DNA of 60,022 nt from an uncultured Eubacteriales bacterium. Its GTDB lineage: Bacteria; Bacillota; Clostridia; Peptostreptococcales; Anaerovoracaceae. A program made the position numbers and the translations under genes. The notes under the pieces were generated by a model. The model was not told where the DNA came from. It did not search any database and worked only from the letters and a program-made list of their open reading frames with translations. How positions within the stretch are numbered: the stretch's first letter is position 1; every line of letters begins with the position of its first letter. Positions 21,166 through 35,330 of this stretch are shown piece by piece. The DNA is taken from NCBI GenBank assembly GCA_902801255.1, contig CADCHO010000019.1:1-60022 (forward strand), in the 5' to 3' direction.

Positions 21166-21202
21166 ATCTGAACCTCCGAGTGAGGAAATTATATCATAAA
21201 AA

Positions 21203-21224
21203 GGCTGCGGACGAATCCGCAGCC
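21203..21224 (-). terminator. Rho-independent terminator closing the nitrogenase-like cluster
   Basis: On the minus strand GGCTGCGGA-TTCG-TCCGCAGCC is followed by TTTTTAT. It lies 19 nt after the substrate-binding protein stop. Confidence 0.85.
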
Positions 21225-21242
21225 CTGCAGTCCGGTCGGACC

Positions 21243-22409
21243 TTATTGATATGCAAATCCCTCTCCTGCGCTCTGTACAGGCTCGAATATGGATTGTGCC
21301 TGCTCGTCAGTCAGATCAATGCCGAATACTTCCTTGTAGTAAGCTTTTGCCTCTGCGATGACGTCGACATCTTCGAACTTTTCAGGATATGCTGCCTTAG
21401 CCATCCACAGAAGAGTTACCGGGCAGTCGACTCCCGGAGTGTAGCTCCTGTACATACCGAGCGGCATCTTGAAGACTCTCTTGTCCTGGACTGCCTTTAC
21501 CGGGCTCCAGTCGTAGCCTGCTACAGTATTGTTGTACAGATCATCCGGATAGAATGCGTTGAAGTTGGTCATGAAGATCAGATCAGGGTTCCATCCGTAT
21601 ACCTGCTCCATGTTGACTGCTACGGAGTTGTCTGTTGAGAGCTCCTTGGCAACATTCTTTGCTCCGATGGCATCTGCCCACCACTGACCGAAGAACTGCT
21701 GTCCCGAGGTCAGGAGCGTAGTATCGCTGTACTGGAAGAGGAAGAATGCATTGGCTCTCTCTTCATCAGGGATGTCCTTTACTCTCTCCTGAACCATGTC
21801 GTACATTGCGTTGGACTTCTCCTCAACGATGACAGCCTTGTCGCTGTCAGGGAACATCTGGCTCAGCAGGGAGATCCAGTTATTGAGAGTCTCGATGCAG
21901 TTATAGTTCCACTTGTTTACGGAGATAGCGACTGCAGCAAAGCCAGCATTAGTCAGCTGGTCACCGAGTTCGGAGCTCGATGCGCTGTAGAATACTACAT
22001 CAGGCTCAAGCTTTGCGAGCTCTTCCATGTTGACATTCACGTCTTCGATATATCCTGTCTCCGCATTGAGGATCTCAGGATAGAGCTGCCCCAGCAGTCC
22101 GTTCTGTGCAGCTGTCATCGATGGCATCGGCATGCCTACGATCTTGTCAGCAGAGTCGAAGAATACGGCAAGCACGCTCGGGAGCGGATATATATCGCAT
22201 ACCGCTATTCTCTGGATATCTGTCGGTACCTCGACCTGCCTGTCGGCGTGATCCGTTATGGTGATGGTGTCAGAAGTTTCAGCAGGCTCTGCAGATTCCT
22301 CTCCGCCGCCTCCGCCGCATGACGCGAACGCCATCATGCTCATGGCGATCACCATGACAAGCACAAGAAGTTTTAACGTTTTGTTCTTCTTACTCAGAAT
22401 ACTCTTCAT
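21243..22409 (-). CDS. ABC transporter substrate-binding lipoprotein (metal chelate/corrinoid type)
   Basis: 388 aa. The signal peptide has lipobox FASC followed by a Gly run. The mature part is a PF01497-type (BtuF/FhuD/FecB-like) periplasmic binding protein starting ITITDHADRQVEVPTDIQRIAV. AGGAGG lies 9 nt before the ATG. It is the last gene of the cluster, 20 nt after the NifK-like gene. It is far from its presumed permease and ATPase (27.3-28.4 kb) but in the same orientation. The family imports siderophores, haem, cobalamin or other chelates. The ligand here is unknown, and placement inside nitrogenase-like genes suggests the imported compound is what they reduce. Confidence 0.88.
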   Translation of the reverse strand: MKSILSKKNKTLKLLVLVMVIAMSMMAFASCGGGGGEESAEPAETSDTITITDHADRQVEVPTDIQRIAVCDIYPLPSVLAVFFDSADKIVGMPMPSMTAAQNGLLGQLYPEILNAETGYIEDVNVNMEELAKLEPDVVFYSASSSELGDQLTNAGFAAVAISVNKWNYNCIETLNNWISLLSQMFPDSDKAVIVEEKSNAMYDMVQERVKDIPDEERANAFFLFQYSDTTLLTSGQQFFGQWWADAIGAKNVAKELSTDNSVAVNMEQVYGWNPDLIFMTNFNAFYPDDLYNNTVAGYDWSPVKAVQDKRVFKMPLGMYRSYTPGVDCPVTLLWMAKAAYPEKFEDVDVIAEAKAYYKEVFGIDLTDEQAQSIFEPVQSAGEGFAYQ

Positions 22410-22429
22410 AATCAGAAACCTCCTTTGAT

Positions 22430-23719
22430 TTATTTGATTTTAATTAATAGCTCATTTATGTCATCGACCAGATCCGGGATCTCGTCTCTGTAGATGCGGC
22501 CGGAGAAGGCCTCGCTCGGAAGCGAAATGAACTTAGCGCTTTCCGGAACGATAGGCTTGTAAAGAGGATCCGCTATGACAAAGGCTGCGCCTTGAAGTTC
22601 AGGGATGATGTCATCTTCGTCAGGTGTCATGCGATCGCATTCCCGGAGAATATCTTCCGGACATTCCGTCGCACAGAGTACTTTCGCAGGTATGCCGCAC
22701 TCGAGTTCGATAGTGCTCGCGAGCGACAGCGATGTGATGCCCTCGCCAATCACAGCGGCGAAGCCTTTTTCATATGTACTTCCGTTCACACCTTCACTTT
22801 CGTTCAGAAAGACTCCGGAGTCCACACTTATCTCACTCGATTCAAAAGTGTCTGCTCCACCCTGCTCTCTGAATTTCTTTACATTGAGTATTATCTGATC
22901 AGCCAGCAGACCCGGAAGCTCATTTCCGACCGGATACCCAATAGCATACGGCATGCCGAATCTTTCGTACAGCACTTTGGCCGCGCCGTAGCCGGCCGCT
23001 GAAACGACCAGATTCACATCTGCTTCGGCCGAGCGTCTTATCTCGTCAAGGCTGTTGCCCATCGCCCATTTCGACACTACTTCAAAGCCCTCTCTTTCGA
23101 GCCACTGAACTATGGAGTCATCCGTTCCGTTCACGGAGAAATCGAGCGGGGTAAGTCCAAGGACATTGACCTTGATCCCATTCGGGCGCATGCAGCAATC
23201 GTCCAGAACTGATGCAAGTTTCCGCGCAGACATCTGCAAAGTATTTCCTTCACCGTTTTTGCTGTCTCCGGGATCATCTACGAAGCGCTTCGCGATCCCC
23301 GCAAGAGCCATGGACGCACCATGTATGTATGTATTCATGCCGGTAGTCGGAAAGCCGAAGCTCGGAGTACCCGTTCTGCTTTCAATTACCGAAGCGACTG
23401 CTTCGAAGTCGAATCCTGTCATCGTAGGGATAGGTGTGCCCGCTATAGCGATGAAAGCCGGCTTAAGCACTTTTGCAGCATCCACGATATCGCTGATGAG
23501 CTTTTCGTCATCACCCATGATCGCTTCCATCTCGCTGATGCCGGATATGTAGACCATGCTGTCCATGTCGTACCAGCGCGGTTCGTCGTGGGTCGTGTAC
23601 GTCGAGTTGCAGCCTGAAGCGTCATGCATTACAGTCATTCCGTCTAGCTCAAACAACGCCGAGCACACGCCCATGACATCCGCTGAGTATGTAGAAATTA
23701 TTCTTGCTGTCTGTTTCAT
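22430..23719 (-). CDS. Nitrogenase component 1-like protein, beta (NifK-like) subunit
   Basis: 429 aa with the oxidoreductase/nitrogenase component 1 fold. Cys19 (MGVCSALFE) and Cys37 (HDASGCNST) match two of the cluster-ligand positions of NifK/BchB-type subunits. The third position reads IAGTPIPTMTG, with no Cys. The start ATG at 23719 overlaps the NifD-like stop (ATGA), with GAGGTG 8 nt upstream; a GTG at 23728 is the alternative. It should pair with the NifD-like protein and receive electrons from the NifH-like ATPase. The absence of FeMo-cofactor ligands argues against N2 fixation. The substrate is unknown. Confidence 0.85.
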   Translation of the reverse strand: MKQTARIISTYSADVMGVCSALFELDGMTVMHDASGCNSTYTTHDEPRWYDMDSMVYISGISEMEAIMGDDEKLISDIVDAAKVLKPAFIAIAGTPIPTMTGFDFEAVASVIESRTGTPSFGFPTTGMNTYIHGASMALAGIAKRFVDDPGDSKNGEGNTLQMSARKLASVLDDCCMRPNGIKVNVLGLTPLDFSVNGTDDSIVQWLEREGFEVVSKWAMGNSLDEIRRSAEADVNLVVSAAGYGAAKVLYERFGMPYAIGYPVGNELPGLLADQIILNVKKFREQGGADTFESSEISVDSGVFLNESEGVNGSTYEKGFAAVIGEGITSLSLASTIELECGIPAKVLCATECPEDILRECDRMTPDEDDIIPELQGAAFVIADPLYKPIVPESAKFISLPSEAFSGRIYRDEIPDLVDDINELLIKIK

Positions 23720-25086
23720 CGTATACACACCTCACAGCCCAGGCCCTTCACCTGCACAAGCTCACGCATCTCTTTCCTTTCGAGGAAGGCCTCGCGCATA
23801 AGTCTGCAAGTTCTTGTGACTGCCTCATATCCTGTCATGCCTCCGCCTTCAACAACGTTGACGAAGTGGTCGGTCTCCTCAAAGGCAGCCGCTTTCTGCC
23901 CGATCGCCAGGATTTTTCCTTCTTCCTTTTCTTCAGCATTTGCTGTGCGGGCAAATCTCATACCAGGGTGCACCGTCGGATAGAACATAAGGTCCGGGTG
24001 TTCCTTCTGCAGACTTCCGAATGCCGCTTTGTCTCCGCCGGGAATGCCGTCTGCATACACCTTAGTGACATTTATCCCATGGTCGAGCAGCAGCTCCGCG
24101 AGCCCAAGCGGTCTCGGGCAAAATGTATAGTCGATGCTCACCGCTGTATCTCCGATAAGCCTTTTAGTCTCTTCCAGTTCTCTTTCGCATTCAGCTCTGA
24201 GCGCTGCGATCTCCTCACTGCTTCGAGGTTCAATACCAAGGACATCAGCAAGTCCCGCGAAAGTCGCATCGATCTCATCATAATCGAAGCTGAATTTAAG
24301 CGCGTAGTGGATCCCGCCGAGTCTTTCCGAAAGCATATCTCCGCCAGGCGCTGCGTCCGGATTGTACGAGACATAGACGCGACTCTCCGCCATCTGCTGG
24401 TATTCTTCGTAAGTTTTGCACGAAGTGATCTCATGCACCTTAAGGCCGGCACCTTTCAGGACCTTCATCAGGTCGCTGTCCTCATCGGTCGGAAGGTCAT
24501 TGCCGATGATCGCGACCGCCTTTGGATCTATCGTGCGCTCATGCAGGAGCATGTAGAGGCGCGACCTCATCAGCTGGTCCGGAGTCAGACCGCTCTTGCG
24601 CATGATAGGATTCATGTAGCAGTCTGTGAAGTCGATGTCCGGGAAGCGGCTCCTGAGCACAGAGTAAATCATATCGAGGTCGACACCCGTAAAGTGATGC
24701 ACGCAGCTCGTATACACGAGGACTGCAGGGGGGCGCTTCGGTAGCTTTTTGATTATGTCCGTCACGCCTTCTATCACAAGATCTTCCATATCTCCGTCGA
24801 GCAGGTTGTTCTCTCTGACTGCGACAGTAGAGAATCTGTCCATCGTACCCATCTCAGCGGCAGTCAGTACGACTCCGCGCAGGCAGCCCGCAGCGCACAC
24901 GAAGATTTCGTGTGCCTCCGGGATGAGCATCCCGGTGTGGACGATGTTCCACGTGCCGCGGGCCGGAGATGAATACTCCAGCCCCGACCTGAACGGTGCA
25001 GGGAAATTCGCGTCCGCGATCCTTACATGAGGGATCTCTTCGGCATTCAGCCTTTTACTTTGTGATCCATTGATTTTTTTTAGCAT
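23716..25086 (-). CDS. Nitrogenase component 1-like protein, alpha (NifD-like) subunit
   Basis: 456 aa. Three candidate cluster Cys: C64 and C68 (FVCAAGCLRG) and C128 (VYTSCVHHF). This differs in spacing from NifD but is consistent with a bridging [4Fe-4S] site shared with the NifK-like partner. The NifD FeMo-cofactor Cys/His pair is not recognisable. The C-terminus ends in GLGCEVCIR with two more Cys. It is translationally coupled to the downstream gene. Upstream lies a 380-nt region with paired TGCGCA palindromes and a small ORF. It resembles the nitrogenase-like reductases that act on tetrapyrroles (CfbD, BchN) or sulfur compounds (Mar) without clearly belonging to any of them. Confidence 0.85.
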   Translation of the reverse strand: MLKKINGSQSKRLNAEEIPHVRIADANFPAPFRSGLEYSSPARGTWNIVHTGMLIPEAHEIFVCAAGCLRGVVLTAAEMGTMDRFSTVAVRENNLLDGDMEDLVIEGVTDIIKKLPKRPPAVLVYTSCVHHFTGVDLDMIYSVLRSRFPDIDFTDCYMNPIMRKSGLTPDQLMRSRLYMLLHERTIDPKAVAIIGNDLPTDEDSDLMKVLKGAGLKVHEITSCKTYEEYQQMAESRVYVSYNPDAAPGGDMLSERLGGIHYALKFSFDYDEIDATFAGLADVLGIEPRSSEEIAALRAECERELEETKRLIGDTAVSIDYTFCPRPLGLAELLLDHGINVTKVYADGIPGGDKAAFGSLQKEHPDLMFYPTVHPGMRFARTANAEEKEEGKILAIGQKAAAFEETDHFVNVVEGGGMTGYEAVTRTCRLMREAFLERKEMRELVQVKGLGCEVCIR

Positions 25087-25468
25087 TTTACTGTCTTCTC
25101 TATTGTTAGGTTTCTCTCTTCCGGTAACTTAGCTTTGCTTCCGTCAGGTCTCCTCTTATGTACTGTATAGCTTTATGCCTTTTAAGCCCTTTTGACTTTA
25201 CTATTGGTTTGCACTCTTCTGCTGAAAAATAAAACCATGGTAAACTGCGCATCATATCCTTGATAATCAGGGCAAATGCGCAATAAACTCAAACTCAAGT
25301 TTACGATATATCCCTAGTTATCATTATTTAGACATTGTACCGGGCCCAATCACTCATTCACACCCCATTTGGGGCTGATCCAAGTGCTTTCCCTCTTATC
25401 TGTTCTCAACTATTGCGCATATGGCATTTTTATTTTTACCCTCGTGCGCATTTTTTTCTTTACTTTTT
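25087..25468 (-). other. 380-nt region between nifH-like and nifD-like genes
   Basis: AT-rich compared with its surroundings. It holds four TGCGCA palindromes, at 25246, 25277, 25414 and 25445. They form two pairs, each with 31-bp spacing. Two of them are extended inverted copies of ATGCGCAATA. A CCCC-ATTT-GGGG hairpin lies near 25363-25374, and a 49-aa ORF is annotated separately. The region probably contains regulatory sites and possibly a promoter for the nifD-like genes, but no convincing -35/-10 pair stands out. Confidence 0.5.
25106..25255 (-). CDS. Possible 49-aa basic small protein
   Basis: An ORF of 49 codons begins MMRSLPWFYFSAEEC and continues with a Lys/Arg-rich helix-like part ending SYRKRET. 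AAGGA lies just 2-5 nt before the two start codons, which is too close to be ideal. It sits between the NifH-like and NifD-like genes, 19 nt before the latter. I do not recognise it. It could be a small accessory or regulatory protein, a remnant, or chance. One TGCGCA palindrome overlaps its start. Confidence 0.3.
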   Translation of the reverse strand: MMRSLPWFYFSAEECKPIVKSKGLKRHKAIQYIRGDLTEAKLSYRKRET

Positions 25469-26239
25469 TCAGCATAGTCTCATTCCCGAATTGCAAATCT
25501 CAAGCAGCTTCTTTGCCAGCTTGCGGTATTCATCTGCCATCTCGCTGTCAGGGAAAGCCTCTATGACCGTCTTTCCCAGATCCTCAGCATCAGTGACCGT
25601 TTCACTGCGGCTCAGCTCGCCAATTACCTCTGAATGAATGTCGGAAGCGAGCTCAGCTACTTTGGCGTCTTCATCGCGGACATTCCTGCGGTTGAGGATG
25701 ATGCCGCCGAGTGAAGCGTAACCTCTGTCCCTGAACCCGTCGAGCGCGACGGCGATATTCGCGGCAGCATGAATGGCCATATTCTCCCCGGAGGTGATAA
25801 CAAACACCTTATCGGCATAGCCTCCGCGCATAGGCATCGAAAATCCGCCGCAGACTACGTCGCCAAGCACGTCGTAGATAACGACGTCAGGTTTGAACGT
25901 CTCGTAGGCACCCTTCTCTTTGAGCTTGTCAAGAGCCGCTATTATTCCGCGTCCTGCGCATCCGAGGCCGGGAGTAGGTCCGCCCGCCTCCACACAGATC
26001 ACGCCGCCGTAGCCCTCCTTTACCATGTCGGATAATTCGAAGGCATTCTTGCGTTCCCTTACGAGATCAAGCACAGTTGTCATATCTCCCTGGCCATGGA
26101 GGCTCGAAGTCGAGTCCGCCTTAGGGTCGCATCCTATCTGCATGACCTTGTAGCCCATGTCCGCGAGAGCCGCCGACACGTTCGACACCGTTGTCGATTT
26201 GCCGATGCCGCCTTTTCCGTATACTGCGATTTTAATCAT
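25469..26239 (-). CDS. NifH-like iron-sulfur ATPase (reductase component)
   Basis: 256 aa. P-loop GKGGIGKST (9-17), switch Cys37-Asp38-Pro39 (GCDPKADST), and the two [4Fe-4S] ligands Cys94 (GLGCAGRG) and Cys130 (VVCGGFSMP), shared with NifH, BchL and CfbC. It dimerises around one cluster and delivers electrons, with ATP hydrolysis, to the NifD/K-like partner. It is somewhat shorter than NifH (about 275-295 aa). It lies 42 nt after the ABC ATPase gene, with AGGAAAGG upstream. The arrangement transporter-nifH-nifD-nifK-binding protein supports reduction of an imported compound (inference). Confidence 0.92.
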
Positions 26240-26281
26240 TTTGTTACCTTTCCTGTATCCGCCGGGTCCGTCCGCGCGGTT

Positions 26282-27352
26282 CTATTCATATGTGGTTTTA
26301 ACGCTGATGTCCGGGATTAGTCCCAGTCTGTGCGACAGAGCCTCGATGTCCGATGCGGGGCCTTCGAGCATCACGCTTATTATGTATTTTTCAGATCTCC
26401 TGTGAGGCAGGCCCATCCTGCCGATCAGCAGATGATTGTATTCCCTGAATGCTTTGTTTATAAGATCTGCTCTATCGTTGCTCCGCATTATAACGGTTAT
26501 GGACGCGAGTATCGTTTCATCTTTGTCCGATACCGGTATTTCCTGTTGCTTAGCCTGATCCTCACCGCTTATGCCGACAGCCACGACGTTCTTCATTATG
26601 TTGTGCGGTGTCTCCACCTCACCTATTAATGCATCGACTCCGAACGCCCGGCGGATATTTTCTTCGGTCACCACACTTGTAGTATCCCCGAAGATGCTTC
26701 TTCCGTCCTTGGAAAGCATCAGTGCCTTGCCCGCACGCTGAAGTGCATGAGCCGGGTAATGTGTGTTGAATATGCAGGCAACGCCCTCTGCCGCCAGAGC
26801 CGTCATCGCGTCGAGAACGATGAGCTGGTTTTTGAAGTCGAGGTTGGATTCCGGCTCATCGAGAACCAGGATCTCCGGTTCGGCAGCCATTGCACGCGCT
26901 ATCAGCACCATCTGCAGTTCGCCGCCGCTTATCGCGTAGCACGGTTTATCGGCAAGATGCGAAATGCCGAGTCTGTCCATCACGCGTTCCGCCACCTTCA
27001 TGTCTTCACCGGACGGAGCCGAGAAAGCTCCGATACGGCTGCTTCGCCCGAGCAGCACGGTCTGGAATGCCGTATAAGATACTGCCGCAGACCTTGCCTG
27101 AGGCACGTATGCCATCCTGCGCCAGAGCTTTGATGCGGGTATGCTTCGAATATCTTCACCGTCCAGAAGGCTCCTGCCGCTCTGCCAGTGGAGCATGTCC
27201 ATCATGCATCTGAGCAGTGTCGTTTTTCCTGCCCCGTTCGGTCCGAGCACAGCAAGTATCTCTCCCGGCTCAACCTCTATATTTATATCTTTAAGTATCT
27301 GCGGTCCGTTCTTGTATGCGAAGCTGCCGCTTTCTATTCTGAGCAGACTCAT
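26282..27352 (-). CDS. FecE/BtuD-type ABC ATPase with fused TM1266-like C-terminal domain
   Basis: 356 aa. The ABC domain (1-245) has Walker A GPNGAGKTT (about 37-45), signature ISGGE (141-145) and Walker B ILVLDEPES (161-169). Residues about 282-356 form an extra domain closely resembling the stand-alone TM1266-family regulator encoded at 28567-28812. Both share the IGRMG(L/I)P motif, and both have a predicted beta-alpha-beta ACT/NikR-C-like pattern. The linker is polar (about 262-281). I chose the start at 27352 because it overlaps the permease stop by 4 nt (ATGA); the frame is open further upstream only as a shadow of the permease gene. The extra domain may sense a ligand and gate transport (inference). 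Confidence 0.9.
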   Translation of the reverse strand: MSLLRIESGSFAYKNGPQILKDINIEVEPGEILAVLGPNGAGKTTLLRCMMDMLHWQSGRSLLDGEDIRSIPASKLWRRMAYVPQARSAAVSYTAFQTVLLGRSSRIGAFSAPSGEDMKVAERVMDRLGISHLADKPCYAISGGELQMVLIARAMAAEPEILVLDEPESNLDFKNQLIVLDAMTALAAEGVACIFNTHYPAHALQRAGKALMLSKDGRSIFGDTTSVVTEENIRRAFGVDALIGEVETPHNIMKNVVAVGISGEDQAKQQEIPVSDKDETILASITVIMRSNDRADLINKAFREYNHLLIGRMGLPHRRSEKYIISVMLEGPASDIEALSHRLGLIPDISVKTTYE

Positions 27353-28422
27353 ATGCGCCAGCCTCCGCTTCTTCTCATCAGGATTATAAAGAACGGCGCG
27401 CCTATCATGGCAGTCAGTATCGATACGGGAATCTCCGCCGCAGAAATGCTGCGCGCCATGGTGTCTACGATTATCATGAATACGGCTCCGAAGCTTACGG
27501 ATGCCGGTACTATCGAAAGGTGATTGTTGCCGAATAACATGCGGCACATGTGAGGGATCAGAAGCCCGACCCATCCTACCTGTCCGCACATCGTTACGCA
27601 GGATGCCGTGACAGCGGTCGCCGCAACAACGGTGATTCCTCTGAGCAGCCTGATATTGACGCCCGATGCCTTTGCTTCATCATCGGAAAGAGGCAGCAGG
27701 TTCATGCGCCATCTGATGAGCATGAAGAGTACCACTCCTGCGACTATGACAGGAGCACCAAGTGAGAGCGTGCGATAGTTTGCCTTGTCGAGGCCTCCCA
27801 TAAGCCAATATGTGATAGCCGGGAGCTGTGATTCAGCATCCGCTGCGAACTTGACGAAGGATATGAGCGCGGAGAACAGCGATCCTATCATAATGCCTGA
27901 GAGCACTATGTAACTGAGTCCTCCTCTGTCCTTGCCCGAACCCGCAAGCCATGTGAGAGCTACAGCAAAGCTGCCCATTGCCAGACCCATCAGCTGTATC
28001 CCGATCAGATCAAATCCGAGCAGTATCCCGAGCGCGGCGCCAAAAGCCGCGCCGCTTGCCACGCCAAGAGTATCCGGTGTAGCGAGAGGATTTGCGAAAA
28101 GGCTCTGGAACGCACAGCCCGAGACTGAAAGCCCTGCTCCGACCAGGCAAGCCAGTATGATGCGAGGCAGCCTCAGCTGCATGACCGTCTTTTCAATTAG
28201 CTCGCTTTCCGCATGCTTACCGGCCAGTGCAGCGCGGAGCACGTCAAATACCTCGCCCGGTGAGATAGACATACGTCCGATCCCAAGGGCGATGATGGCT
28301 GCTATAAACGGCAGCACAATAAGTATTAATATCCATACGGCTCCAAGCCTTCCGTCCCTTCTGAGGCTCATCTGCTTGTTCTGCTTCCTGCTAATTATCC
28401 TGTTTACGGTGACTCTGCCCAA
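27349..28422 (-). CDS. FecCD-type ABC transporter permease
   Basis: Up to 357 aa with about nine to ten membrane helices. It has the FecCD/BtuC landmarks LRLPRIILACLVGAGLSVSGCAFQ, FANPLATPDTLGVASGAAFG and VGLLIPHMCRML near the C-terminus, where it contacts the ATPase. The frame opens with TTG at 28422, directly behind a terminator-like hairpin. An ATG at 28371 is the alternative start and would leave a 51-nt space, though without a close ribosome binding site. It should dimerise and work with the fused ATPase and the lipoprotein at 21243-22409 to import a chelate. Confidence 0.9.
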   Translation of the reverse strand: MGRVTVNRIISRKQNKQMSLRRDGRLGAVWILILIVLPFIAAIIALGIGRMSISPGEVFDVLRAALAGKHAESELIEKTVMQLRLPRIILACLVGAGLSVSGCAFQSLFANPLATPDTLGVASGAAFGAALGILLGFDLIGIQLMGLAMGSFAVALTWLAGSGKDRGGLSYIVLSGIMIGSLFSALISFVKFAADAESQLPAITYWLMGGLDKANYRTLSLGAPVIVAGVVLFMLIRWRMNLLPLSDDEAKASGVNIRLLRGITVVAATAVTASCVTMCGQVGWVGLLIPHMCRMLFGNNHLSIVPASVSFGAVFMIIVDTMARSISAAEIPVSILTAMIGAPFFIILMRRSGGWRI

Positions 28423-28431
28423 TAATCAAAA

Positions 28432-28459
28432 CAGCCCCGCTCCGTGTGAAGCAAGGCTG
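28432..28459 (-). terminator. Terminator/attenuator directly upstream of permease gene
   Basis: On the minus strand CAGCCTTGCTTC-ACAC-GGAGCGGGGCTG forms a 12-bp stem with several G-U pairs, followed by TTTTGATTATT. It lies 108 nt after the TM1266 stop and 2-60 nt before the permease start, depending on the start used. That location suits attenuation or a riboswitch platform better than simple termination. A perfect AGAGCGCTCT palindrome (28484-28493) lies in the same leader. Confidence 0.55.
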
Positions 28460-28566
28460 CATAAATCAAATCTCAGTACGCAAAGAGCGCTCTAATGAAT
28501 GATCACCTTCGCATCTTGCTTCGGCCTCAAACCCTGTTCATGGGATTTCGGCTTCAGGAGGATGTT

Positions 28567-28812
28567 TCAGACTTTGGCATAGGTCACCTTGGCATTGATA
28601 CCGTCGAGGCGTCCGAGCGCTCCGCTGAGTGAGTTGATCCTGTCCATCGGCGCGTCAATGGCTATGCTGATAATGTTTATCCCCTTCTCTTTGTAAGGGA
28701 TCCCCATGCGTCCGATAATATAACCGGAATATTCATGGAGCAGATCGTTCAGCATTTCCACTTTGTCTGACTGCGTGACGATAATGCTTATCACAGCGAC
28801 TCTGGTTTCCAT
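28567..28812 (-). CDS. TM1266-family putative iron-only hydrogenase system regulator
   Basis: 81 aa covering a single beta-alpha-beta domain of the TM1266 (TIGR03959-type) family, related in fold to NikR C-terminal and ACT domains. The YIIGRMGIP motif is at about 31-39. Family members sit in [FeFe]-hydrogenase maturation operons, but no hydE/F/G or hydrogenase gene is in this window. AGGAGA lies 7 nt before the ATG. A second copy of the domain is fused to the ABC ATPase 1.2 kb downstream. I infer sensing of a metal or its chelate. Confidence 0.85.
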   Translation of the reverse strand: METRVAVISIIVTQSDKVEMLNDLLHEYSGYIIGRMGIPYKEKGINIISIAIDAPMDRINSLSGALGRLDGINAKVTYAKV

Positions 28813-28857
28813 TGTTGATCTCCTGTTTTTTAATTGTAAAGTGATTTTAGCACAACA

Positions 28858-30099
28858 TCAGTCGTGCGGCAATCTCCGGTGGTCCTCTACTTTATCGATG
28901 CTGAGGAACACAACGGCAGCTCCGGCAGCCGTCACAAGGGCTGATATGAAAGTAAGTACCTTTGCCCCGGAAGCATCGAGTATCCATCCTCCTGCAAAGC
29001 TTGCGATGATAGTAGAGAAGGTAAACATCATCGTGAAGAGAGACTGTCCCTTGACCGCCTCTCCCGGGCTCATGATCTCGTTAATGAAATAAACCATGGC
29101 AGGCATCAGAAGCGCGAATGCCACAAGCTGGAATGCCTGTGTGGCAAAGAGCACTCCTACCGAACCCGCGAGCCAGCAGACCACGATCTTCCCGGTGAAT
29201 CCGATAGATGCGATCTTTATGAGCGTGCGGCTCCGGAAGTGTTTCTTTATCTGCCCGATGAAGATCATTGTAGGCATCTCCAGGAGGGCCATCAGAGAAA
29301 GGATCCTTCCTGTCTGCTCGGTAGTGCCTCCTACTCCGTCTGCTATCTGCGGCATGTAATTGGTGAGAATGGCGTTGCTGAAGAGCAGCCCTGAAACACC
29401 AAGATTCATTATGAAGAAGTATTTATTGCGCCTGATGAACGCCTTGAGGTCTATCCTTTCGTCATCATCTGTGTTCGTTGCAGCCGGTCTTCCGCCGGTA
29501 TGCTCAGCGATCTCAATATCGTTTGCCTGCTTTATTTTTGTAAAGCTGTACTTTGTAAGGAATAGCAGCGCTATCAACAGTATGCATGCCGCCTCCGTAC
29601 ATACCGGAACCGACATCTCACCCCTTTTCTCTACCAGAGTTCCGAGCACCGCCACTATGGCGGAAAATCCCAGTGAGCCTCCGGCTCTTCCTATTCCGAA
29701 GTTTACATTTGTACCGCATTCGCTGAGCCTGAAGGAAAGCGTATTAAGAAGCGGCTGAAGCAGAGCGTGTATCGCCAGAACAGCCGCGATAGCCGCAGCC
29801 AGCATGAATGATCTTCCTGCAAAAACGAAATATCCCACACAGATCAGCATCATGAGAAAAGTCATCCATACCGAGGCATCGATTATCTTTATCCCTTTTG
29901 CTCTGTCCATGTGGTCGGCAACAAAAGGCTGCAGTCCAAGCGCCAGCAGGTTTGCCGCAGCCAGCGTTATGCCTATGTGCATATTGTCATAGCCTTTTGC
30001 GAGCATAAAAACCGAGGCAAAACTGCCTGTGATACCGTAGATCATCCAGTATGCCCCGAGTGTTGATGCGTATTCTATATTAAGTTTTAATGATTTCAA
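28858..30099 (-). CDS. MFS transporter
   Basis: 413 aa with twelve predicted membrane helices and a central hydrophilic loop (about 190-220). It is of the MFS_1-like/nucleoside-lactose permease type, with motif-A-like DHMDRAKG between helices 2 and 3. The substrate cannot be read from sequence. It lies between the ATC-hydrolase-family gene (23 nt) and the TM1266 gene (45 nt), so it may export or import the small molecule those enzymes handle. Confidence 0.85.
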   Translation of the reverse strand: MKSLKLNIEYASTLGAYWMIYGITGSFASVFMLAKGYDNMHIGITLAAANLLALGLQPFVADHMDRAKGIKIIDASVWMTFLMMLICVGYFVFAGRSFMLAAAIAAVLAIHALLQPLLNTLSFRLSECGTNVNFGIGRAGGSLGFSAIVAVLGTLVEKRGEMSVPVCTEAACILLIALLFLTKYSFTKIKQANDIEIAEHTGGRPAATNTDDDERIDLKAFIRRNKYFFIMNLGVSGLLFSNAILTNYMPQIADGVGGTTEQTGRILSLMALLEMPTMIFIGQIKKHFRSRTLIKIASIGFTGKIVVCWLAGSVGVLFATQAFQLVAFALLMPAMVYFINEIMSPGEAVKGQSLFTMMFTFSTIIASFAGGWILDASGAKVLTFISALVTAAGAAVVFLSIDKVEDHRRLPHD

Positions 30100-30121
30100 T
30101 TCTGCTTATATCTCCTGTCTG

Positions 30122-30814
30122 TCAGAATTCGTCCGGTGAGAACTCCAGCAGGCAATCATACGCTTCCTGACCAAAAAGTGCAATATAGTCGGCAACAGCT
30201 CTGTCGATTATTTCCTTTGCGTCTTCAGGGAAGTGCTTGCACAGCTCGTCAGCAACAGAGCAGTAAATGTGAGCTGTATGGAAGTTGAAGTCTCTCATAG
30301 CACTTGTTCCGAGTTCAGCTTTCTTGTCAGCAACCATTTTGACTTCTTCTTCGCTGAGAGGCTTGCCCCAGTCGAAGTCACAGCGATCTCCACCCCAGCT
30401 CATAGATGTAGAGATTGGAGTGCATACGGCTCCGCACCCAAAGCCATCGTATACGGCCGCATCCACATTTACACAGTACTCGCGTCCGTACTCAAGGATG
30501 TCGTTCTTCTTCCATGCTTCGCACCATGCGCACTTTGCGATATACGTCTGGTAGGTAGGCTCTGAGCGGAGCATGCCGAACTCCATCTGTCCGGCATAAT
30601 CAGGCTTCCACTCGCCATACGCCTGGTTTGTCCAGAGGTCGACAGGATCACCGGCCTTGCGTGCGCGCTCTGCCATCCTGGCACCGCGCTCTTTTCCATA
30701 ACGGATCATCCCGTCCTGGATGGCCGCCCTGCCTTCTTCGCCTTTAGCCTCTATAGCTGCACGGCTGAGGAAAGCGAACATCATCGCCTGGTTTTCTATC
30801 TTAAGTTCTGCCAT
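30122..30814 (-). CDS. L-2-amino-thiazoline-4-carboxylic acid hydrolase family protein
   Basis: 230 aa matching the ATC hydrolase family (PF14196-type). Cys- and Trp-rich segments include KCAWCEAWKKNDILEYGREYC, followed by a DAAVYDGFGCG motif and a C-terminal His-containing DFNFHTAHIYCSVADE. The founding enzyme opens the thiazoline ring of ATC on the way to L-cysteine. Many relatives in anaerobes have unknown substrates. It is separated by only 2 nt from the thioredoxin-reductase-like gene, so the two are probably coupled. In this cluster it could open a thiazoline in an imported metallophore or process a sulfur compound (inference). Confidence 0.8.
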   Translation of the reverse strand: MAELKIENQAMMFAFLSRAAIEAKGEEGRAAIQDGMIRYGKERGARMAERARKAGDPVDLWTNQAYGEWKPDYAGQMEFGMLRSEPTYQTYIAKCAWCEAWKKNDILEYGREYCVNVDAAVYDGFGCGAVCTPISTSMSWGGDRCDFDWGKPLSEEEVKMVADKKAELGTSAMRDFNFHTAHIYCSVADELCKHFPEDAKEIIDRAVADYIALFGQEAYDCLLEFSPDEF

Positions 30815-30816
30815 TA

Positions 30817-31677
30817 TCAGCTCTCCTTTTCGATCTCGCTAAGGTGTTCAAGGATCGCGTGTGCCGCGACGTTGCCTTCACCCACCGCCTTCGCGATCTG
30901 ATACGGCCTGCCAGTGCAGTCGCCCGCAGCGTAGCATCCTTTGAAATTAGTCTCCTGGCTGCGGCCCACCTTTATATGCGCGCCGTCCATCTCGAGCCCC
31001 GGAAGCACCGTCGACGGCGCGATGGCAGGCCTCAGAATGAAAATGCCATCCACATCGATCTTAGTTCCGTCCGTAAGCTCTATTGAATCACACTTCATGC
31101 CGCCGTCAAGCTTCTTTACCGGAAGCTTCAGGATCTCAGCATTCTCCGCATCGGTCTTATAGCCGAAACTTGTGTAAATGTACAGCTTGCCGCATGTCTC
31201 TTCAAGATACTTTATGTCGTGCTCCATGCGCTCGTCCGTGCAGTAAACGGCAGCAGTCTTTCCTTTGTAGAGAAATCCGTCGCATGTAGCGCAGTAGCTC
31301 ACGCCTGCACCGAGAAGCCTGGCTTCGTTCTCCATGCCTTTAGCAGCTGCGATGCCCGTAGAGAGCAGCACTGTACGCGCTTCAAACATCTCGTTGTCTG
31401 CGAGTATCATGTAGCTGCCGCCCATATCGGCAATGTTGGTAACACGTTTGTCGACAGACTCGAGCCCAAGCTCTTCAGCCTGATCGCGGAACTTCTTATT
31501 CAGTTCCGGACCCGAAACCATAGGCACACCCGGATAGTTAGCTATCTTTTCAGACTTACCTACCTTGTCGCTCAGCTCATTCGAGCCGAACCAGATTATA
31601 TCCTTGTTGTGCAGCTTCAGAGTAAGTGCTGCAGAAAGGCCCGCAGGCCCAGTCCCTATAATTGCTACATCAAACAT
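30817..31677 (-). CDS. Thioredoxin-reductase-like FAD/NAD(P) oxidoreductase
   Basis: 286 aa. FAD-binding GTGPAGLSAA at the N-terminus, redox-active CATC (YCATCDGF) near residue 134, and the FAD-closing motif GCYAAGDCTGRPYQIAKAVGEG near the C-terminus, all as in TrxB. The NAD(P)-binding middle domain lacks a clear GxGxxA: the usual position reads KTAAVYCTDERMEHD. Its electron donor may therefore differ (for example ferredoxin, as in FFTR-type or other flavin thioredoxin reductases). I chose the start at 31677 because AAGGGG lies 5 nt upstream; an ATG at 31692 is in frame. No thioredoxin gene is adjacent. Confidence 0.85.
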   Translation of the reverse strand: MFDVAIIGTGPAGLSAALTLKLHNKDIIWFGSNELSDKVGKSEKIANYPGVPMVSGPELNKKFRDQAEELGLESVDKRVTNIADMGGSYMILADNEMFEARTVLLSTGIAAAKGMENEARLLGAGVSYCATCDGFLYKGKTAAVYCTDERMEHDIKYLEETCGKLYIYTSFGYKTDAENAEILKLPVKKLDGGMKCDSIELTDGTKIDVDGIFILRPAIAPSTVLPGLEMDGAHIKVGRSQETNFKGCYAAGDCTGRPYQIAKAVGEGNVAAHAILEHLSEIEKES

Positions 31678-31749
31678 AGTTACCCCTTTCATAATCAGTG
31701 TAAAGAAGCCTCAAAAGTTCCTCGCTCGGAGCTTTTTGAGCCTTTTCTA

Positions 31750-32427
31750 TTACATTGCTTTATTTAGCTCGATCTGGCGGCGAAGCCAGCTGATCCATGC
31801 ATCGAAGCCTTCGCCTGTCTTTGCCGATACGAAGAAGATCTCCGACAGCGGATTCAGTGCGTGTACTCTTTCTACGAATGCATCGTCATCGAAAGCAAAG
31901 AACTTGCGTGTATCTGTCTTATTTACCAGGACTGCCTGTGTGACCGTGAACATAAGAGGATACTTCAGCGGTTTGTCGTCGCCCTCAGGAACCGACAGAA
32001 TCTCAATATTGATGTTCGCGCCTGTGTCCTGCTCAGCTGTGCATACCAGATTTCCCACGTTCTCAAGGAACACTACGTCGAGGTCCTTAGTGTCAAACTC
32101 GTTGATCGCAGCCTGTGTCATAGCAGCGTCCATGCAGCACTCTCCGCCTGTATGGATCTGCATCGAGCGTACACCTGCCTCTGCCATCTTATCTGCATCG
32201 ACAGTTGCCTCAATGTCTGCTTCCATGACGCCTATGTTATATTCGCCGCCCAGCTCTTCGATGGTGCGCAGGAGAGTCGTAGTCTTTCCTGCTCCCGGCG
32301 ATGCCATCACGTTGACCATGAAAGTTCCGTTCGCCTTGTTCTGCGCTCTTACATCTGCAGCGATACGGTCGTTCTCTTCAAAAATTCCTACATTTACATC
32401 TATTACTCTTACATTGTTATCTGACAT
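31750..32427 (-). CDS. hypB: HypB-type metallochaperone GTPase, copy 1
   Basis: 225 aa SIMIBI GTPase of the HypB family. P-loop ASPGAGKTT, DADK region, ENVGNLVCTAE (third Cys), and NKTD for guanine. The metal-site segment reads TGGECCMDA, whereas HypB proteins usually have Cys-His there, so His is replaced by Cys. I chose the start at 32427 with AGGGG 8 nt upstream; a GTG at 32436 is in frame. HypB normally delivers nickel to [NiFe]-hydrogenase or other Ni enzymes. No hypA, hydrogenase or urease gene is visible. It lies 11 nt after a second hypB. Confidence 0.9.
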   Translation of the reverse strand: MSDNNVRVIDVNVGIFEENDRIAADVRAQNKANGTFMVNVMASPGAGKTTTLLRTIEELGGEYNIGVMEADIEATVDADKMAEAGVRSMQIHTGGECCMDAAMTQAAINEFDTKDLDVVFLENVGNLVCTAEQDTGANINIEILSVPEGDDKPLKYPLMFTVTQAVLVNKTDTRKFFAFDDDAFVERVHALNPLSEIFFVSAKTGEGFDAWISWLRRQIELNKAM

Positions 32428-32438
32428 GTTTTTCACCC

Positions 32439-33116
32439 CTATTCAACATATTCCAGGATTTCCTTGGCACGCTCGCCTACCCACTCGGACAGTGCGATTA
32501 TGCCCTCGCCGGTAGCTGCCGATACCATGAATACCGGTGCATCAGGGCAGCACTCAGCAACATACTGCTTGAATTTCTCAGGGCTGAAGTCAAATACTTC
32601 CATCGCATCGATCTTATTTACTACAACTACGTCTGCCTTTGTGAACATCAGAGGATACTTGAGCGGTTTGTCGTCGCCTTCAGGTACTGACAGGATCACA
32701 AGATTGATCTGAGCTCCCGTATCAAACTCTGCCGGGCAGACAAGATTTCCGACATTTTCAAGAATGACGATGTCGAGGTCCTTCGAATTGATCTCACGGA
32801 GGGCCTGACGGCTCATGTCCGCATCGAGGTGGCACATTCCGCCCGTGTGGAGCTGCACCGAAGGGATGCCCGCATCAAGCATTGTCTTGGTATCAACATC
32901 GCCATCGATATCTGCCTCGAGCACTCCAACCCTGCAAAGCAGTCTGAGCTGCTCCACAAGTCTGAGAATTGTGGAGGTCTTGCCGGATCCCGGTGAGCTC
33001 ATTACATTGATATAAACAGTCTTTTCAGCTGCAAGTTCTTCACGCAGCTTATCCGCATCCGCATCGTTGTCCGCCAGGATGCTTTCCTTAAGATCGATAA
33101 TTCTGATTTCTTCCAT
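32439..33116 (-). CDS. hypB: HypB-type metallochaperone GTPase, copy 2
   Basis: 225 aa paralogue of the next gene, with the canonical HypB metal segment TGGMCHLDA (Cys-His) and third ligand Cys in ENVGNLVCPAE. P-loop SSPGSGKTS and NKID guanine motif. No His-rich N-terminal tail for nickel storage. It is the first gene of the minus-strand cluster, and upstream lies a 370-nt AT-rich region with paired 36-bp elements. AGGAGG is 13 nt from the ATG, a rather long spacing. Two HypBs in tandem with different metal ligands suggest a heterodimer or two metals. Confidence 0.9.
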   Translation of the reverse strand: MEEIRIIDLKESILADNDADADKLREELAAEKTVYINVMSSPGSGKTSTILRLVEQLRLLCRVGVLEADIDGDVDTKTMLDAGIPSVQLHTGGMCHLDADMSRQALREINSKDLDIVILENVGNLVCPAEFDTGAQINLVILSVPEGDDKPLKYPLMFTKADVVVVNKIDAMEVFDFSPEKFKQYVAECCPDAPVFMVSAATGEGIIALSEWVGERAKEILEYVE

Positions 33117-33488
33117 TTCTATACTTCTTCCTCCTTTTTTATTTTATCCCGTTTGCGGGAGGAGTTTTTTCTGAAAAGTTACAAATTCGAAGATCTTATT
33201 TTATATGTGTAACTTTTTTATGTTTCTGTCGTTTATAGCCTTTGCTCTTAGCGTGAGCTCTCCGTAAAAAAGTTACATATACAAAATAGAACACTTATAT
33301 TTGCAACTTTTTCTTTAAAACTCCTCCGGGAACGTGTATTATATGCTCCGCAAACGGATTATATGATATAATGTGATTTCGTAAACTACATTATATGACT
33401 AAGAGTTAATTATTGCACGAATAATATTTCACGAATTATATAGAAACAAAGCAGTTAGCGCAAGCCAACCGCATATCGGGACATTATT
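33117..33488. other. AT-rich divergent regulatory region
   Basis: This 372-nt region separates the hypB cluster (minus) from the acyl-CoA ligase gene (plus). It contains the paired inverted elements described separately, a TATAAT (33367-33372) that may be the plus-strand -10, and a direct repeat CACGAATAAT/CACGAATTAT with 14-bp period (33416-33439). No ORF or known riboswitch is visible. Confidence 0.5.
33148..33357. repeat. Large imperfect inverted repeat with two GTTAC-N26-G(T/C)AAC elements
   Basis: Two 36-bp elements, 33178-33213 and 33272-33307, each read GTTAC-N26-GTAAC or GCAAC with identical spacing and flanking A/T tracts. They are inverted copies of one another around a centre near 33243. 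The symmetry extends outward: GGAGGAGTTTT left versus AAAACTCCTCC right, and CCGTTTGCGG (33149-33158) versus CCGCAAACGG (33348-33357). Confidence 0.65.
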
Positions 33489-35330
33489 ATGAGCAGAAAA
33501 TACACAGACGCAGAATACAGAAACATAAAGAGGCGTGAGCGCGAGGTCATTGAACAGATGCTCAACGAGCTGAAGAAGTCAAAAGACAAGCGCTTTCTCT
33601 TCAAGGAGAAGCATGTCGTGACTGACCTCAAGGACATGCTCAACTACAGTGCAGACGAGCATCCGGATCTTCCGCTCTTCATGCAGAAGTATAAGCCTAA
33701 TCAGCCGTTCAGGGAGATCAGCTTCCGTCAGGCACGTGAGGATGTAAATGCTATCGGAACAGGCCTTCTTGATCTGGGTCTCGAAGACAGACACATCGGT
33801 CTCATCGGCCGTAACTCATCTGAATGGGGCGAATCCTACCTGGCTATAGTCGGCGGAGTCGGAGTCGTAGTTCCTCTCGACAGGGAACTTAACGAAAGCG
33901 AGCTGACTCAGCTCACAGTCAAGGGCGAGCTCGAAGCAGTCATCACGATCAACAACAAATACTATGAGATCTTCAAGCGCATAAAGGCAGGCGGCGAAAC
34001 GAATCTCCGCTATGTCATCAATGCAGACATGGACGAAGACGAAGACGTTGAAGCAGGTCTCATATCGTGGAAGAAGCTCCGCGAAGATGGCCGGCACAAG
34101 GTCTGGAACGGAGACCGTCGCTACATCGACGCACAGGTAGTCAATACTGACCTTGCAGCTATCATCTTCACATCGGGCACGACAGGCGTGGCAAAGGGTG
34201 TAATGCTCTCGCACCGCAACCTGATGCTGGACACCATGCTCGTACAGTCCATGTTCGAAGCCCGTCCGAAAGACATCTGCTTCTCGGTACTGCCGATGCA
34301 TCACTGCTATGAGTGTACTGCTACCTTCCTCAGCTGTGTATACAGCGGAGCTACAGTAGCGTTCAGCCGCGGACTCAAATATATCCGCAAGGACATTCTC
34401 GAAGTAAGGCCGACCATCATGCTGGCTGTGCCTGCCATCATCGAGAACTTCCACAACAAGATAAGGCGTTCGGTCGCAGACAAGCTGAGCGAAAAGCAGA
34501 TGAAAGTATTCGAACTCATGGACCGTGAAGCCAGCCGCTTCAAGGTGAAGCTGCCTAAAAAGGTCACTAAGGACATCGAGGCAGTATTCGGCGGCAGGAT
34601 GCATACGATCATATCGGGTGGTGCGCCAATCGACGGAGCTATTCTCGACTCGTTCTGCAACATAGGCTTCAACGCCATCCAGGGTTACGGCCTCTCGGAG
34701 TGCGCGCCTATCGTCGCTCTGAATCCTGCAAAGCGCAAATTCATGAAGAATGCTTCGGCCGGCCACATCATGCCGTTCACAGAGTGCAAGATACTCGACG
34801 CGGACAGCAATGGCATCGGTGAGATCTGCTTCCGCGGGCCGCAGGTAATGATGGGTTACTACAAGGATCCTGAAAACACCGCTGCTGTGCTCGATGAAGA
34901 GGGCTGGTTCCACACCGGTGATATAGGTTATCTCGACCGCGACAACTATGTGTTCATCACAGGCCGTAAAAAGAACGTCATCATAGCCAACAACGGCAAA
35001 AACGTCTTCCCTGAGGAGCTCGAAAGCTATCTGCAGGCTCTGCCTATCGTAGCGGAATGCATGGTATGGGGCGGCGACCGCGATCCTAACTCACCATGGA
35101 ACGGCATCTGCGCAACCATCAGACTCGACAAGGAAGTCCTCGAGAGAAAGTTCGGACCGGACTACACACCAGAGCAGGCTGAGGCACTTATCGATGCTGA
35201 GGTCGACAAGATCAACAGTGACCTGCCGAGATTCAAGAGGATCGCTCACGTGATAGTGCGTGACCGTGATTTCGACAAGACAACTACGAACAAGATCAGA
35301 CGCTTTGTAGAAGACAACAAACGCGCATAG
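33489..35330 (+). CDS. AMP-forming long-chain acyl-CoA ligase
   Basis: 613 aa of the ANL superfamily. AMP-binding P-loop motif FTSGTTGVAKGV at about 229-240, adenylate motif GYGLSE, the WFHTGDIGY A8 region, and the GRKKNVIIANNGKNVFPEE hinge with the C-terminal catalytic Lys in TTTNKIRR. It activates a carboxylic acid, probably a fatty acid, to the acyl-CoA. The substrate chain length is not readable. The ATG at 33489 has only a weak CGGGA upstream. It is monocistronic and ends in a strong terminator shared with the convergent pta locus. Confidence 0.92.
   Translation: MSRKYTDAEYRNIKRREREVIEQMLNELKKSKDKRFLFKEKHVVTDLKDMLNYSADEHPDLPLFMQKYKPNQPFREISFRQAREDVNAIGTGLLDLGLEDRHIGLIGRNSSEWGESYLAIVGGVGVVVPLDRELNESELTQLTVKGELEAVITINNKYYEIFKRIKAGGETNLRYVINADMDEDEDVEAGLISWKKLREDGRHKVWNGDRRYIDAQVVNTDLAAIIFTSGTTGVAKGVMLSHRNLMLDTMLVQSMFEARPKDICFSVLPMHHCYECTATFLSCVYSGATVAFSRGLKYIRKDILEVRPTIMLAVPAIIENFHNKIRRSVADKLSEKQMKVFELMDREASRFKVKLPKKVTKDIEAVFGGRMHTIISGGAPIDGAILDSFCNIGFNAIQGYGLSECAPIVALNPAKRKFMKNASAGHIMPFTECKILDADSNGIGEICFRGPQVMMGYYKDPENTAAVLDEEGWFHTGDIGYLDRDNYVFITGRKKNVIIANNGKNVFPEELESYLQALPIVAECMVWGGDRDPNSPWNGICATIRLDKEVLERKFGPDYTPEQAEALIDAEVDKINSDLPRFKRIAHVIVRDRDFDKTTTNKIRRFVEDNKRA

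Follow-up and report, generated by a model that had tools for sequence, protein, structure and literature searches.

When [FeFe]-hydrogenases mature, tyrosine is normally converted by HydG into CO and cyanide, and HydE and HydF finish the product for insertion into HydA; no source other than HydG is known for the CO and cyanide that serve as ligands in the active-site H-cluster, and this route is the single one described. The subject here is a cluster of twelve genes of an uncultured gut bacterium of the Eubacteriales (assembly GCA_902801255.1, contig CADCHO010000019.1, positions 1 to 60,022; "the window" means this whole stretch of 60,022 nucleotides). Its core consists of a TM1266-family protein, a FecCD-type permease, an ABC ATPase with a TM1266-like tail, a NifH-like ATPase, two nitrogenase-like PF00148 subunits and an importer lipoprotein, and it probably acts as an [FeFe]-hydrogenase maturation module that replaces HydG. 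The names NifA and NifB are coined here for the two PF00148 subunits, and NifB is not the radical SAM protein of that name.

HydE and HydF have been reported in all acetogens studied and HydG in only three, and several acetogens carry HypCDEF without HypAB, a pattern left unexplained in the available part of the paper, which suggests that an atypical protein resembling HydG, or ligand sources as yet unknown, may be at work and finds C. carboxidivorans to have HydE and HydF and no motif-complete HydG (PMC9431212). The available part of an earlier survey (PMC3464626; Dos Santos 2012) describes nitrogenase-like pairs in which one subunit has two conserved cysteines and its partner a single one, from Coprococcus catus, Dorea longicatena and Dhaf_1539/1540, with linked ABC transporters, "hydrogenase maturation proteins" nearby in C. 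catus and other Firmicutes, and a one-sentence guess at a role in assembling an active-site metallocluster. No report of nitrogenase-like genes replacing HydG was found in open-access papers.

Linkage to HydE and HydF and exclusion of HydG

The window genome (2.24 Mb, 78.5% complete), whose closest named relatives are Mogibacterium metagenome-assembled genomes (MAGs) from goat and sheep guts, encodes an [FeFe]-hydrogenase of group B1 (579.2 bits with TIGR04105, cut-off 450) as well as HydE (589.6 bits) and HydF (556 bits). The latter two are on contigs other than that of the window, which contains no PF02906 gene; two such genes are found elsewhere in the genome. In relatives the radical SAM neighbours of the core are HydE (525.9, 568.0 and 529.3 bits, cut-off 254.6), a HydF neighbour is likewise above cut-off (564.1 bits, locus L113), and many Oscillospiraceae and Lachnospiraceae MAGs have an operon with the order TM1266-FecCD-ABC-HydE-NifH-NifA-NifB-lipoprotein-HydF. 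Counted in 80 named relatives' loci, within the DNA available for each, HydE is present in 30 and HydF in 26 (one partial, L092, and one on the opposite strand, L116), either in 43, and both in 13, in every case on the same strand. HydA, HydE, HydF, TM1266, NifH2-NifA2-NifB2 and HypF-HypD-HypE adjoin in one stretch in locus L054. The genes FecCD-ABC-NifH-NifA-NifB-lipoprotein recur together across genera, with TM1266 found in 69 of the 80 loci, FecCD and ABC in 64 each, the lipoprotein in 65, NifH in 78 and NifB in 79.

A single set of 296 genomes from the window's family served for all searches: HydG (threshold E <= 1e-100), NifA, HypD, the HydA domain and HydE were found in 96, 44, 122, 227 and 133 genomes, respectively; NifA was scored from a contig-end fragment in G474 and from a 183-bit match in G407. 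The 133 HydE-positive genomes comprise 86 with HydG, 42 with NifA, none with both and 5 with neither, and among the HydG-negative genomes HydE is present in 42 of 44 with NifA versus 5 of 156 without it. At the census threshold HydG is found in none of the 44 NifA-positive genomes, all 29 near-complete ones included; 13 NifA-positive family genomes tested at 0.001 gave no match above the cut-off, and the best HydG match in the window genome, of 82 bits, is its own HydE. HydF occurs in 39 of the 44 (29 of 29 near-complete ones) and the HydA domain in 43, and the H-cluster motifs L1, L2 and L3 are present in 19, 20 and 20 of 20 HydA proteins of NifA-positive genomes, hand-picked from the list of HydA matches.

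In a HydE tree of 80 rows (40 of the 42 NifA-positive, 38 of the 86 HydG-positive and 2 of the 5 remaining genomes, with frames chosen by similarity) the HydG/NifA state changes at least nine times, three of these changes being forced by well-supported branches; CxxxCxxC is present in 40 of 40 and 38 of 38 rows. Within the window's genus, 17 of 21 sampled genomes have NifA and no HydG, and one (G439) lacks NifA and carries HydG-HydE-HydF-HydA in a row. The complete genome of C. carboxidivorans P7 has the second, importer-free form of the module (type B, below), and its HydG match reaches just 198 bits against a cut-off of 312. The linkage and the exclusion of HydG are direct observations on these genomes, and membership of the module in [FeFe]-hydrogenase maturation is well supported.

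The nitrogenase-like subunits and two forms of the module

By sequence profile the nearest solved relative of both NifA (74.1 bits) and NifB (104.7 bits) is NifE, and that of NifH is 9fmg_D (252.4 bits). Cysteines C68 and C128 of NifA are invariant in 55 of 55 rows and C37 of NifB in 54 of 54. The AlphaFold models of NifA and NifB are confident (predicted local distance difference test scores of 87.1 and 85.0), and Foldseek confirms the superfamily with top ranks for assorted subunits (AnfK, NifN, NifK, DPOR B) at template-modelling scores of ~0.6; since varied subunits rank first, the likeness to NifE is drawn from sequence.

Placement relative to the Cfb, Bch, Mar and Nif groups was made with curated models and solved-structure profiles. 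Nitrogenase nifHDKENB was rejected on scores below the nif cut-offs and on the presence, in a 78.5% complete genome, of these two PF00148 genes and no others, rather than NifDK and NifEN pairs. CfbCD was rejected on scores of 312.8 versus 402 bits for CfbC and 19.7 versus 268.4 for CfbD, and DPOR/COR on 196.2 versus 345.15 for BchL, 166.2 versus 331.2 for BchX and 29.2 versus 490.35 for BchB. The invariant cysteines, two plus one, are not the P-cluster set of both MarHDK subunits, which would have three per subunit (PMC3464626). NifH, NifA and NifB reach no NCBIfam cut-off of any known group and the core is kept together across genera, which supports the view of an earlier note on this DNA, made from its letters, that the system is an undescribed nitrogenase-like one.

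A NifA tree of 55 rows places the window inside a fully supported clade of 47, which includes the HydE- or HydF-linked loci, the first copies of type B genomes and C. carboxidivorans and is separate from the second copies and from other importer-linked paralogues, long branches making the deep joins unsure. In the order, 29 of 247 genomes gave a NifA match, many of these being distant paralogues. Single open reading frames of 842 and 914 residues that resemble NifA-NifB fusions were seen at L042:9299-11827 and L044:12006-14750, and a MAG labelled Actinomycetaceae (L107) contains a Mogibacterium-like copy with 71% identity to the window NifA, by transfer or by binning error.

The module occurs in two forms. 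In type A a single NifH-NifA-NifB set accompanies the importer, and HypD is absent in 18 of 20 one-copy genomes (the exceptions are G407 and G456; G460, with one NifA gene in two pieces, is counted as one-copy). Type B has two NifH-NifA-NifB sets and no importer, and HypD is present in 24 of 24 two-copy genomes. Nine HypF-bearing loci each contain HypD, HypE and a small HypC-like frame with MCVG at its start, and none shows importer genes; one of the nine frames scores 60.1 bits with the HypC model (cut-off 48), and examples of HypC, HypD, HypE and HypF are above curated cut-offs. The [NiFe] large subunit PF00374 is missing in 24 of 26 genomes with HypD and NifA, and among the 44 NifA-positive genomes it is matched, in part, only in G319 and G407, both HydE-negative. 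The joint presence of HypCDEF and absence of the importer in the HypF loci indicate that HypCDEF and the second NifH-NifA-NifB set take the place of the type A importer, and they may supply the same precursor.

Proposed role and competing explanations

In the proposed pathway the importer would take up a precursor that contains iron, and the TM1266 domain of its ATPase may act as a ligand-sensing brake; regulatory tail domains exist on some ABC importers, and the tail resembles these. On the basis of homology and of the invariant residues, NifH is predicted to spend ATP and send electrons to an Fe-S cluster shared by NifA (C68, C128) and NifB (C37), and the NifEN-like site may build or reduce an Fe-CO-CN unit equivalent to the HydG product. 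Completion by HydE and HydF would follow, the presence of both genes and their operon linkage being observed and the hand-over itself presumed. In type B, where the importer is absent and HypCDEF and the second set are present, the cyanide probably comes from carbamoyl phosphate, as in Hyp chemistry. The chemistry by which HydG is replaced is what we infer; tentatively, and with rather less confidence than for the replacement itself, we suggest that a second route, not dependent on tyrosine, leads to the H-cluster, and that in it a NifHEN-like scaffold assembles Fe-CO-CN, fed in type B by HypCDEF and in type A by uptake of an iron precursor that carries cyanide or carbonyl. If such a route exists, nitrogenase homologues build a hydrogenase cofactor, the module accounts for acetogens with HydE and HydF without HydG and for HypCDEF without HypAB, a large and so far unassigned part of the nitrogenase superfamily gains a function, and the H2 metabolism of many rumen and gut bacteria is explained; should the chemistry hold, the NifHEN-like part has a categorically new function.

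A number of observations weigh against replacement of HydG by this module. HydE and HydF of the window genome lie off the window contig, and 37 of the 80 loci, including the nearest kin of the window (L079-L088), show neither gene, as do the NifA-positive genomes G319 and G407. Genomes G177, G180, G205 and G232, all from another family, have HydG together with the NifA clade; so do L112, L116, L132 and L157 among 50 named genomes, of which the remaining 46 have no HydG above cut-off. The Fisher probability for exclusion (2e-29) ignores kinship, and the stringent census threshold may miss HydG fragments in poor assemblies. No source of cyanide is visible in type A, Foldseek does not prefer NifE over other nitrogenase-family subunits, and 97 of 227 HydA-positive genomes of the window's family lack HydE, so that this family commonly has hydrogenase-like genes with no known maturase to go with them. 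For C. carboxidivorans an atypical HydG-like gene has been suggested (PMC9431212, available part). As an observation in its own right, the 97 strong-HydA genomes without HydE may rely on different cofactors or on a further way of maturation.

Some of the same facts suit a module that serves HydE/HydF maturation without performing HydG chemistry, by importing and reductively freeing iron for the H-cluster or for some other step, with CO and cyanide from an unrecognised source such as HypCDEF, a divergent lyase of the radical SAM type, or uptake of both from the environment. The FecBCD-kind importer of type A, the lack of HypD in nearly all one-copy genomes, the genomes with both HydG and the NifA clade, and the weak HydG-free activation by HydE and HydF cited in the available part of PMC9431212 would fit this explanation; it leaves unexplained, however, why none of the 128 family HydE-positive genomes with HydG or NifA has both and why type B exchanges the importer for HypCDEF, and we regard it as unlikely. 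That the NifH-NifA-NifB set, HydE and HydF make a different organometallic cofactor, the hydrogenases being inactive or otherwise matured, would be in keeping with the many HydA-positive genomes without HydE, but HydA is nearly universal in NifA-positive genomes with H-cluster motifs intact in the 20 sampled, and HydA, HydE, HydF, TM1266 and NifH-NifA-NifB are contiguous in L054; of the explanations considered this appears the least probable.

Scarcely more probable is an explanation in which a metallophore is imported and nickel or some other metal is freed from it by reduction, the connection with hydrogenase being incidental; such a role was among those proposed in the earlier note. A FecBCD-type importer, a NifH-type reductase and two HypB proteins do stand in one set, and similar importer and reductase sets without HydE occur in HydG-positive genomes (L050, L051, L056, L058), yet the presence of HydE or HydF at more than half of the 80 loci and the exclusion of HydG count against it. 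Neither does the gene content favour nickel: in this incomplete genome PF00374 finds no [NiFe] large subunit and HypD is absent, with urease, CODH and other nickel enzymes not among the searches, and HypB pairs and the ATC hydrolase are each found in 14 of the 80 loci, the core existing without them. The note's further suggestions of tetrapyrrole reduction and sulfur salvage have neither tetrapyrrole nor methionine-salvage genes among the labelled neighbours, many neighbours being unlabelled. Since nickel users and fitting neighbours are lacking, all three roles were dropped, and replacement of HydG remains the preferred explanation.

Genes of the cluster and comparison with known systems

All the genes named in the earlier note are present on the minus strand at 21243-33116, each matching its family, and their starts overlap or almost touch except at the nifH-nifA insertion and the gap before FecCD. 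The TM1266 regulator it listed is there twice, as a separate gene and as the C-terminal tail of the ABC ATPase, and may be a ligand sensor common to both; the separate gene was found in 64 of 65 named loci with >=4.5 kb upstream. Its statement that hydrogenase context is lacking holds for the window and fails for the genome, and the gene neighbourhood is conserved for the core, to which relatives add HydE and HydF in the operon, and not for the HypB pairs, TrxR-like flavoprotein, ATC hydrolase and MFS transporter.

Features of the cluster (starts of ABC at 27352, FecCD at 28371 and NifB at 23719 are the likely ones, from the open reading frame (ORF) text and relatives)
Feature	Position	Strand	Evidence
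Promoter-like site upstream of first hypB	33358..33385	-	10/12 consensus matches only; 23 sites vs 12.0 expected in region
HypB-like GTPase a	32439..33116	-	TIGR00073 222.2 bits, cut-off 121.2
HypB-like GTPase b	31750..32436	-	TIGR00073 216.7 bits, cut-off 121.2
TrxR-like flavoprotein with CATC	30817..31692	-	PF07992 68.1 bits; TIGR01292 162 bits, under cut-off 343.45
ATC-hydrolase-family protein	30122..30814	-	PF14196 91 bits, cut-off 28.1
MFS transporter	28858..30099	-	PF12832 71.3 bits
Separate TM1266-family protein, 81 aa	28567..28812	-	TIGR03959 107.4 bits, cut-off 60.8; PDB 2nzc; marker of [FeFe]-hydrogenase systems
Stem resembling a terminator or attenuator, TM1266/FecCD gap	28431..28460	-	13 pairs then T-rich; weak evidence, because 13 such sites vs 9.6 expected
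FecCD-type permease	27349..28371	-	PF01032 271.1 bits; ORF extends to 28422
ABC ATPase with C-terminal TM1266-like domain	26282..27352	-	PF00005 108.4 bits, PF21699 56.2 bits; ORF extends to 27589
NifH-like ATPase	25469..26239	-	PF00142 295.5 bits; nifH model 324 bits vs cut-off 394.35
Non-coding insertion nifH/nifA	25087..25468	-	~0.4 kb
NifA, NifE-like subunit	23716..25086	-	PF00148 63.9 bits, cut-off 28.6
NifB, second subunit	22430..23719	-	PF00148 85.6 bits, cut-off 28.6
Importer substrate-binding lipoprotein	21243..22409	-	PF01497 (Peripla_BP_2) 55.7 bits; lipobox FASC
Terminator-like stem past last gene	21201..21226	-	11 pairs then T-rich

The FecBCD/BtuCDF-type importer is complete, its permease, ATPase and binding protein all being above cut-offs in a Pfam scan that covered 20 proteins of the window. 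An Rfam search gave tRNA only and no riboswitch. The nifH-nifA insertion, present once in the window, matches L081 and L083 over its first 38 bases, and the remainder matches only copies in its own genome, with no full match among the relatives' loci compared. HypB a retains the C-H and C residues (TGGMCHLDA, GNLVC) that we take to be the usual HypB metal site, and HypB b has C-C at the corresponding place (TGGECCMDA). Low counts in the 80 loci (HypB pairs 14, TrxR 16, ATC hydrolase 14, MFS 10) mark these genes as accessory to the window's lineage, of which they would be specific helpers. A Sulf_transp permease, a BcrAD-type ATPase and an HGD-D protein occupy the usual place of HypB, TrxR and ATC hydrolase at L034:13471-17728, and a divergent AMP-binding enzyme (window 33489-35330, plus strand) adjoins the first hypB and stays beside the cluster in L033 and L035. 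Other importer and NifH-NifA-NifB sets, without HydE or HydF nearby, occur in L050, L051, L056, L057, L058 and L061, in genomes that are HydG-positive (G171, G029, G016, G073, G052) or HydG-negative (G028), and are a separate nitrogenase-like system.

Compared with described systems, the module shares with the NifEN scaffold and its NifH the NifE-like profiles of NifA and NifB and differs in having no further PF00148 genes, in its linkage to hydrogenase genes and in a fold search that does not favour NifE. Type B has the HypC, HypD, HypE and HypF of [NiFe]-hydrogenase maturation, whereas the [NiFe] large subunit itself is mostly missing. MarHDK methylthio-alkane reductase (PDB 9FMG; PMC12552129, available part) is likewise a three-protein nitrogenase-like set, with the closest solved NifH, but its P-cluster cysteine set contrasts with the two plus one invariant cysteines here, and sulfur-salvage genes are not among the labelled neighbours. 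The group IV clades of PMC3464626 have the same two plus one cysteines, while HydG loss, the linkage to HydE and HydF and the two alternative forms do not appear in the available part of that paper. The closest correspondence is with HydEFG maturation: HydE, HydF, HydA and TM1266 are all present, often in one operon in relatives, and in place of HydG there stands a NifHEN-like complex together with either an importer or HypCDEF.

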